From an uncultured Gemmatimonadales bacterium (GTDB taxonomy: Bacteria; Gemmatimonadota; Gemmatimonadetes; JACCXV01; JAHWKZ01): a stretch of DNA of 64,000 bases. A program made the translations under genes and the position numbers. This document shows positions 19,059-21,041 of this stretch, piece after piece. The stretch is from the NCBI GenBank assembly GCA_947259315.1, contig CAMYLR010000006.1, forward strand, positions 244,493 to 308,492. The letters are read 5' to 3'. The notes under the pieces were generated by a model that had not been told where the DNA came from, ran no database searches, and saw only the letters and a list, made by a program, of their open reading frames with translations. Within the stretch, counting starts at the first letter, position 1. Every line of letters starts with the position of its first letter.

Positions 19059-19406
19059 ATGGCACGAGCGCGGCGCGTCGTTGAAGAGATCGAAGCCGAG
19101 CTTCATAAGGTGCCCAAGCCCCGGTTTTTCAACATCGAGCAAGGCGAGCTCGAGCTCAAGACATACGAAGACGGTGCCAAGAAGCTCGACATCTTCTTTC
19201 GTGGCATCAAAGGTCCCGACGGATCGGTTGCCCAGGTCCTGGTCGATGGCGACGTCCTGTGCGAGCTGCCACTCGAACGTGGATGCGGACAACACGAGTA
19301 CAACAGCGAGAACGGCGACCAGGTCCCGGAGTTACGTGTCGGTCAAGTCGTCGAGGTCCAGTACGGCGGGAGGGTGTTTCTCAAGGGGACGTTCACGCCT
19401 GACTGA
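19059..19406 (+). CDS. Hypothetical protein, third gene of the greA-yggX operon
   Basis: 115 residues, no signal peptide and no membrane segment. It is rich in beta-type sequence (ELELKTYEDGAKKLDIFFRG, VAQVLVDGDVLCELPL, VGQVVEVQYGGRVFLKGTF). I do not recognise it. It starts 2 bases after the YggX-like stop, so it is probably co-translated, and it overlaps the convergent oxidoreductase gene by 14 bases at the 3' ends. Confidence 0.65.
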   Translation: MARARRVVEEIEAELHKVPKPRFFNIEQGELELKTYEDGAKKLDIFFRGIKGPDGSVAQVLVDGDVLCELPLERGCGQHEYNSENGDQVPELRVGQVVEVQYGGRVFLKGTFTPD

Positions 19407-20493
19407 TCTGCCGCGTGATCTCGGCGATGTTCGCTCCGCCGATCGAGAACGCTGCTACCGCTCGCCCGTCACGCTCTCCAACAGCCAAACCCTTGCCACC
19501 TCCCAGGTCACTCTCCGTGACCCACTCGCGCGCCAGTTCCGGTGCGCCAACGACCGCGACCGGAATGCCAAACAACTCAGTGTCGTACGACGAAACACGG
19601 CTATACGGCGTGGGCTCATCGGTAATCATGTTCTCGGCTGCGTGACGCCCCTGGTGTTGGGCGTGAAGCCAGTGCTCGACGCGGTGACGCACGCCGGTCA
19701 ATGGATCGTCGTAGGCGGCCACGTCACCGGCGGCATATAGACCCGGCAACTTGGTGCGCAAGCAGGCATCAACGCGGACTCCGTCGCCATCGGCGAGTGA
19801 GGTGCCCTCGAGAAACTCGACGTTCGGTTTGACACCCACTCCGACCGGGACCAAATCCGCCTGAAACTCGCGCCCGTCGGTCGTGTGGACGTTGAGGTTG
19901 TCGCCGTCTCGATCGATCGTCTCTGCGGCCGCCTCCAACTCGAGCGTCACGCCCCCCGATCGCATGATCGTTTCCAGCGCCACCCCGATCTCTTCGGGTG
20001 CCAGGTGGCCGAACAACCACGGCTCGAGCGCTAGCAGCGTGCACGTGACGCCGCGCTTGGTCAGTGCCGCCGCCACCTCGACGCCGATCAACCCACCACC
20101 GATGATCACCGCCCGCGTCGCGTCACGTGCCGCCGCGCGCAACGCCACTGCATCCGCCAGCGGGCGTAGCACGACCACCCCCTGGAGATCGATACCCGGC
20201 ACCCCCAGCTGAATGGGCCGCGCGTCGGGATCCAGGCCAACCGCCCTGGTCTTCGGCTTCAGCTCGATTCCCTGGGCAGCGTGGACATCCGCTGGCTTGA
20301 TGACGACGTCCTCGGGCGACAGATCGTCGCTCTCGAGAAACGATTTGGAGAGAAGGATCCGGTTGTAGAAGGGATACCGATCGTCAGAGACGACCACGAC
20401 ACGCGCTTCCCGATCACGCTTCCTCAGCGTCTCCGACCCGCGCGTGCCCGCGGGTCCGGAGCCCAACACCACGTATCTGGCGTGCTCGACCAC
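19393..20493 (-). CDS. FAD/NAD(P)-dependent pyridine nucleotide-disulfide-type oxidoreductase
   Basis: 366 residues. FAD motif VVLGSGPAGTRG (about 8-19), NAD(P)-binding VIIGGGLIGVEVA (about 149-161) and the late FAD motif LYAAGDVAAYDD (about 273-284) resemble rubredoxin reductase or the NirB N-terminal half. There is no CxxC redox pair, so it should pass electrons to an external partner. The GTG at 20493 is the only reasonable start, but its ribosome site is poor. It lies 30 bases downstream of the SelW-like selenoprotein candidate, which could be such a partner; that link is inference. Confidence 0.82.
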   Translation of the reverse strand: MVEHARYVVLGSGPAGTRGSETLRKRDREARVVVVSDDRYPFYNRILLSKSFLESDDLSPEDVVIKPADVHAAQGIELKPKTRAVGLDPDARPIQLGVPGIDLQGVVVLRPLADAVALRAAARDATRAVIIGGGLIGVEVAAALTKRGVTCTLLALEPWLFGHLAPEEIGVALETIMRSGGVTLELEAAAETIDRDGDNLNVHTTDGREFQADLVPVGVGVKPNVEFLEGTSLADGDGVRVDACLRTKLPGLYAAGDVAAYDDPLTGVRHRVEHWLHAQHQGRHAAENMITDEPTPYSRVSSYDTELFGIPVAVVGAPELAREWVTESDLGGGKGLAVGERDGRAVAAFSIGGANIAEITRQISQA

Positions 20494-20523: not shown

Positions 20524-20748
20524 CTACCGCTTACTCAACGCGGCAACGATGGCCTTTTCCCGCGGGAACTCGCCGGTCTGTTTCTTGGAGTAGATAAGGT
20601 CACCGTTGACCTCAACTTCAAATACGCCTCCCCCTGAGGCGATCAACTCGACGTCGGCGGATTCAATATTGTCCTCGATGGTGGCGGCCAAACTGGACGC
20701 CTGCGGCTCGTAGTTTCAAGCCGCGCAGTATTCGATCGTGATCTTCAC
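20524..20748 (-). CDS. SelW/Rdx-family selenoprotein candidate (CxxU, in-frame UGA)
   Basis: Reading GTG 20748 to TAG 20524 gives 74 residues with a single in-frame TGA at codon 11 (20716-20718). The N-terminus is VKITIEYCAA-U-NYEPQAS; the rest includes ELIASGGGVFEVEVNGDLIY and a final TGEFPREKAIVAALSKR. This matches the Rdx/SelW thioredoxin-like fold end to end: EYC at the first strand, the GGGVFEV core and the FP motif before the last helix. The UGA occupies exactly the second position of the family's CxxC/CxxU redox pair, so selenocysteine is the simplest reading. GGAGGT lies 4 bases upstream of the GTG. The gene starts 2 bases after the upstream stop and has FAD oxidoreductase downstream. 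A nonsense mutation or sequencing error is the alternative. Confidence 0.82.
20690..20718 (-). promoter_or_regulatory. Candidate bacterial SECIS hairpin at the UGA codon
   Basis: From the A of the TGA codon on the minus strand: AAACT (20716-20712) pairs with AGTTT (20694-20690), ACG (20711-20709) with CGT (20699-20697), and CC (20706-20705) with GG (20701-20700). The apical loop is GCA, with small bulges AG and CC. A hairpin starting at the Sec codon is the expected place for a bSECIS. The loop is small and the G is close to the UGA, so SelB binding is unproven. Confidence 0.45.
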
Positions 20749-20750
20749 GT

Positions 20751-21041
20751 CTACCTCCAGTCGCAGGGGCATAAACCGAAGAAACGATCCTCGGCGGCCT
20801 TCTTGAACGCATCCCCAAGCTCGAGCCCTTGGCGCTTGAAGCGTAGAATGTCGCGCAACTTGTTCATGTCGGCGTCGCTCCACCAGCGCGGATCATCTCC
20901 TCCGAGGTGCGCCTCAGGGGTGACGTATCCGGCCGATTGACAGGCGTCGAGCGTTCGCTGGTCTAGGCCGGTGACGCGGCGTAGGAGCTCGTCGGTACGC
21001 ACGATGGCGGTCAGGCTAGGCGGTGGGTCTGTTGTCGTCAA
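20751..21041 (-). CDS. Small MerR-like/HTH protein of unknown function
   Basis: 96 residues from a TTG at 21041; a GTG at 21002 is a shorter alternative. TAIVRTDELLRRVTGLDQRT, then LDACQSAGYVTP and DMNKLRDILRFKRQGLELG, look like the winged-helix layout of MerR-type DNA-binding domains, in which a later helix continues as RFKRQGLELGDAF. It ends FFGLCPCDWR, with a CPC motif that could sense redox or metal. It is the first gene of the unit leading to the SelW-like gene (2-base gap) and the oxidoreductase, so it may regulate them. Confidence 0.6.
   Translation of the reverse strand: MTTTDPPPSLTAIVRTDELLRRVTGLDQRTLDACQSAGYVTPEAHLGGDDPRWWSDADMNKLRDILRFKRQGLELGDAFKKAAEDRFFGLCPCDWR

Follow-up and report, generated by a model that had tools for sequence, protein, structure and literature searches.

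The question raised by this locus is whether a short minus-strand reading frame interrupted by an in-frame TGA is a working selenoprotein gene, in which that codon specifies selenocysteine (Sec), or whether the interruption has some other explanation. The frame lies within the window, by which is meant the whole 64,000-nucleotide stretch of DNA analysed, and the coordinates of the relevant features are collected in Table 1.

Table 1. Features of the SelW-like locus (positions are those of the window)
Feature	Position	Strand	Remarks
SelW-like (Rdx family) selenoprotein gene	20524..20748	-	GTG start, TAG stop, 74 residues, Sec at position 11
In-frame UGA, selenocysteine codon, second redox position of CxxU	20716..20718	-	TGA kept in relatives
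CxxU redox motif Cys8-Ala-Ala-Sec11	20716..20727	-	both positions invariant in the alignment of relatives
Ribosome-binding site GGAGGT	20753..20758	-	
Upstream gene of 96 aa that weakly resembles MerR-type HTH proteins	20751..21041	-	C-terminal FFGLCPCDWR
Downstream gene, FAD/NAD(P)-dependent oxidoreductase	19393..20493	-	Pyr_redox_2; ferredoxin/rubredoxin reductase-like
bSECIS hairpin GGCGUCCAGUUUGGCCGCC	20683..20701	-	begins 14 nt past the UGA; changes at synonymous positions compensate each other; model R1
bSECIS apical loop AGUUU	20690..20694	-	GGUCU, AGUCU or similar in relatives
8-bp hairpin around the UGA	20703..20724	-	seen in the window but not kept in relatives; probably not the SECIS

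Reading frame, predicted protein and known relatives

Translation of the minus strand from 20748 to 20524 gave VKITIEYCAAUNYEPQASSLAATIEDNIESADVELIASGGGVFEVEVNGDLIYSKKQTGEFPREKAIVAALSKR, with a single TGA (20718-20716) and with the GTG start located 2 nt past the TAG (20753-20751) of the upstream gene. Profile searches returned a match to Pfam Rdx (PF10262; E = 1.2e-20, residues 2-71) and, as the best NCBIfam match, NF041051 (1.1e-27, above its curated cut-off), both of which spanned the TGA; with the curated cut-offs of PF10262 and TIGR02174/NF041051 passed over the whole protein, membership of the Rdx/SelW-like family was established. The codons 3' of the TGA exhibited a pN/pS of 0.24 relative to the same-genus copy, a value indicating that purifying selection acts on them. 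Judged by the SelW-like protein, the closest named relative was Gemmatimonadetes bacterium isolate 0813_bin4, which places the organism in Gemmatimonadota.

These results bear directly on a preliminary description made from the DNA letters and their open reading frames, which had proposed a complete Rdx-family protein if the TGA was translated, with the stop at the Cys/Sec place of the motif, conservation continuing beyond it, and a GGAGGT ribosome site with a 2-nt gap to the upstream stop. The first proposal was upheld by the two profile matches across the TGA and the second by the alignment, in which the TGA forms the second position of CxxU and the Sec site is invariant; the low pN/pS and the extension of the Rdx match to residue 71 agreed with the third, and both the ribosome site and the gap were seen as described.

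The AlphaFold model of the protein (pLDDT 96) matched solved bacterial SelW-related structures best, with query TM values of about 0.8-0.94, and displayed a thioredoxin-like fold in which the motif (residues 8-11) falls between strand 1 (E2-8) and helix 1 (H14-27). Thioredoxin-like proteins carry their redox site between strand 1 and helix 1. As modelled, the product thus has the thioredoxin fold and, as its redox motif, Cys-Ala-Ala-Sec, and because that motif is placed where thioredoxin-like proteins keep their redox site, the natural inference is that it most likely serves as a small thiol/selenol oxidoreductase, the confidence attached to any exact function being low. In such a role the Cys/Sec pair would cycle between a reduced form and a selenenylsulphide. 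A review states that what SelW-like proteins do in bacteria is not known exactly (PMC13188914).

The bacterial SelW-like (SELENOW-like) selenoproteins, which share with the present gene the Rdx family (PF10262), the CxxU motif and a bSECIS shortly after the UGA (PMC1794560; PMC2398784; PMC13188914), have long been known and are among the most abundant bacterial selenoproteins in the sea, mostly in the Sec form (PMC1794560; PMC2398784; PMC9402790), which in the GOS data predominates with 427 Sec against 56 Cys homologs (PMC2398784). The window's gene therefore adds a member to a family already known from bacteria (PMC1794560; PMC2398784), as the preliminary description had recognised, but differs from those described in its occurrence in Gemmatimonadota and in its operon, which is specific to the window's family and in which a MerR-like gene and a flavin reductase gene flank it. 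The best NCBIfam match, NF041051 (SelTWH_Campy), represents the SelW of Epsilonproteobacteria (PMC4607533), which also contains Sec and has an apical hairpin of 5-6 bp, but comes from another phylum and another gene neighbourhood. The Cys-type Rdx proteins (2fa8, 2obk, 2p0g, 3dex) and MIEN1/C17orf37 (2ljk) belong to the same family and adopt the same fold, but contain CxxC where the window's protein has CxxU. Within Gemmatimonadota the Cys type is a distinct and divergent protein and can occur alongside the Sec type, as in two genomes (G076 and G365) that carry both.

The SECIS hairpin and the Sec machinery of the host genome

Published rules for a bSECIS specify a loop of 3-9 nt, an upper stem of 4-16 bp, a G in the first two loop positions, a distance of 16-37 nt from the UGA and an MFE of -7.5 or below (PMC13188914 Fig. 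2). The hairpin at 20701-20683 satisfied them in loop size, stem length, loop G, distance and energy, with a loop of AGUUU (or GUU), a stem of 6-7 bp including one mismatch (U-C), a spacing of 21-22 nt and an MFE of -9.6 kcal/mol with flanks or -8.1 without. Across 87 distinct sequences 90.7% of stem cells were paired and 29 cells had changed on both sides; the stem covariation score of 0.214 compared with 0.113 after shuffling and was reached in 0/500 shuffles, and shifting the partner by 1-3 columns lowered the score to 0.09 or less. Columns 24/30 were 100% paired, solely as CG (84), GC (2) or AU (1), and columns 21/33 contained six standard pair types, all four columns being third codon positions. 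Paired third-position changes of this kind are not needed by the protein, and selection therefore acts on the RNA.

Within the loop of the same alignment (A4), columns 25/28 also covaried: G25 always occurred with C28 (47/47) and never with U28, while A25 occurred with U28 (27) or C28 (13). The choice of Leu codon thus seems linked to the preceding loop base, a link that may reflect the shape of the SelB-bound loop.

The preliminary description had pointed instead to a hairpin starting right at the UGA. Such a structure does exist, with 8 bp, but it is lacking in relatives outside the closest ones and is probably not the SECIS, the conserved element beginning 14 nt downstream; folding of the sequence after the UGA, which the same description had suggested as a check, thus yielded a covarying bSECIS, although not the hairpin it had noticed.

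The corresponding machinery was sought in the host assembly (2.40 Mb, 96% complete), the preliminary description having held that absence of selA, selB or selC would refute Sec use by the organism. All of these genes were detected together with selD: selA (8.3e-121), selB (2.0e-111), selD (1.0e-109) and, using ARAGORN, selC, the tRNA-Sec with anticodon UCA. SelD is itself a Sec protein in this genome, its frame (G000:C6:214406-215329) containing one TGA at the catalytic site (RCAGUASK). A formate dehydrogenase alpha gene, fdhA (G000:C21:35511-37514), likewise has one in-frame TGA at its Sec site (NCSRAUHAPT), followed 3' by the SECIS GGUCGCCGGUCUGGCGGCC, the apical hairpin of which is near-identical to that of many SelW genes of the phylum; its spacing resembles that in the SelW genes of relatives, with which it also shares an apical GGUCU hairpin, but the protein family differs. 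The host genome thus contains at least three selenoprotein genes (selW-like, selD and fdhA), and the use of Sec by this organism, which had been proposed as the likely novelty, is supported by the machinery, the covarying bSECIS, the conserved UGA and the Sec-site TGAs of selD and fdhA.

When model R1, built from SelW SECIS sequences, was run on the host genome, the fdhA hairpin was the third-best place (E 0.43), a result that is in line with a common SECIS type, although by itself no proof of one. At another match, C3:155170, the TGA was not enclosed by any plausible in-frame gene, and the remaining weak matches examined had no TGA in place, so that fdhA was the only one to correspond to a real selenoprotein site.

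Distribution of the gene and its neighbours

In an order-level sample of six genomes the gene was present in four, all from the window's family, and the TGA was retained in 4/4. Extending the survey to 395 Gemmatimonadota genomes gave an Rdx match in 193, and among the matches listed, beyond which lay about 45 weaker Rdx matches left out of the TGA count, every SelW-like one had a single TGA, the five stop-free matches (L028-L032) constituting the different Cys-type subfamily. A scan of named genomes recovered 80 loci from Gemmatimonadota, Krumholzibacteriota, Acidobacteria, Desulfuromonas, Poribacteria, Planctomycetes and others; the TGA was present in 76/76 readable relatives from several phyla, this count excluding four loci (L074, L086, L092 and L113) that the pattern did not read. 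Because one of the two search patterns omits the Sec position, the prevalence of TGA is not an artefact of the search. The alignment with CxxU relatives proposed in the preliminary description has an invariant Sec site. A plasmid search returned only distant Rdx proteins of less than 60% identity.

SelB exceeded its curated cut-off in 281 of the 395 sampled genomes, a frequency indicating that the host organism shares the use of Sec with most of the phylum as sampled. Rdx and selB occurred together in 175 genomes, Rdx only in 18, selB only in 108 and neither in 94 (Fisher p = 4e-17, a value that is only a guide since the genomes are interrelated and many are incomplete). The 18 Rdx-positive genomes (of 193) without selB at the strict cut-off included some with Cys-type Rdx and many incomplete MAGs, while from the 108 genomes with selB and no Rdx match it follows that other selenoproteins should be common in Gemmatimonadota.

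In all four gene-bearing genomes of the window's family, selW was located between a MerR-like gene of 90-96 aa and a flavin-dependent reductase, an arrangement found within the flanks of none of the other fetched loci. The MerR resemblance of the 96-aa upstream protein fell under the Pfam cut-off; its FFGLCPCDWR C-terminus is conserved, and it adjoins selW only in the window's family. This protein is possibly a redox- or metal-responsive regulator and is a candidate regulator in the operon, and the downstream flavin reductase is a candidate electron source for the SelW-like protein in this family. However, since conservation of these neighbours does not reach beyond the family, they are weak evidence for a functional pairing, and the arrangement suggests, but no more than suggests, a family-specific redox partner for SelW.

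Readings of the UGA and their significance

Taken together, these data make it almost certain that 20748-20524 is a functional SelW-like (Rdx) selenoprotein gene, the UGA of which is decoded as Sec with the hairpin at 20701-20683 as SECIS. The SelB-GTP-Sec-tRNA complex would bind this hairpin and, once bound, would place selenocysteine at UGA 20718-20716. With the family, the CxxU motif, the Sec machinery, the SECIS and the conservation of the UGA established at the sequence level, we infer actual insertion of Sec in the cell with very high confidence.

An Rdx gene of the Cys type that had suffered a TGC-to-TGA mutation, or been misread, would also present a lone TGA at the place occupied by Cys in the Cys-type Rdx proteins (L028-L032), but the odds against such a pseudogene or sequencing error are overwhelming, the same TGA recurring in genomes assembled independently of one another, from the family, from the rest of the phylum and from other phyla, which already contradicts it, purifying selection persisting 3' of the codon, and the genome containing both a SECIS and the full Sec machinery. 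Scarcely more credible is a UGA read as some other amino acid, for example as Trp or by near-cognate readthrough. The frame would indeed be open under any code in which UGA is a sense codon, but TGA is the commonest stop in the window, where its use in 22/40 long ORFs excludes a global recoding; moreover, the site aligns with the Cys/Sec of CxxC/CxxU, and the genome encodes SelB and a tRNA-Sec with a UCA anticodon, besides having a covarying SECIS.

The UGAs of selenoprotein genes generally terminate translation when Sec is scarce, and the codon might consequently act, in addition to being decoded as Sec, as a conditional switch, low selenium leading to a stop at codon 10 and an end to SelW synthesis. 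Translation of the downstream flavin reductase might fall as well, amounting to selenium sensing by polarity, a proposal with which the tight spacing and common direction of the genes would fit. Such a switch is unlikely: the operon is confined to one family, and the UGA is kept where the downstream gene differs.

Decoding as Sec, the preferred reading, has consequences beyond this locus. Gemmatimonadota are mostly aerobic (PMC10581226), and the three COX1-family genes of the host genome, a family that also includes related reductases, fit aerobic respiration. Aerobic bacteria are stated to retain selenoproteins only rarely (PMC13188914), a view with which the detection of SelB in 281/395 sampled genomes contrasts. 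In the literature searched, the common occurrence of SelW-like genes in this mostly aerobic phylum appears to have no prior description: a search of titles and texts, which took in only a minority of subscription papers and no supplementary tables such as that of PMC5029168, returned no paper with Gemmatimonadota selenoproteins as its subject, the phylum is unnamed in the main text of two selenoprotein reviews, and the word stem 'selen' is absent from the main text of a phylum-wide ecogenomics study (PMC10581226). In the parts seen of a trench-sediment study, sel genes are reported from about half of the MAGs and are not tied to Gemmatimonadota (PMC8938466). Genes of the SelW type are easily missed because gene callers stop at the UGA, and in earlier annotations SelW genes were 'completely missed' (PMC4607533).

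There is in our estimation an even chance that Sec use is widespread and possibly ancestral in the mostly aerobic Gemmatimonadota (selB in 281/395 genomes, with UGA-type SelW in close to half), and that in the window's family SelW has in addition become part of a redox operon dedicated to it, complete with a flavin reductase. If true, widespread Sec in this phylum would go against the view that aerobes rarely retain selenoproteins. The locus also provides a clean case of SECIS pairing maintained through synonymous changes, and its family-specific operon suggests a redox partner, open to testing, for a protein whose function is unassigned. A common and mostly aerobic phylum of soils and sediments thus often has the Sec machinery together with a SelW-like selenoprotein.
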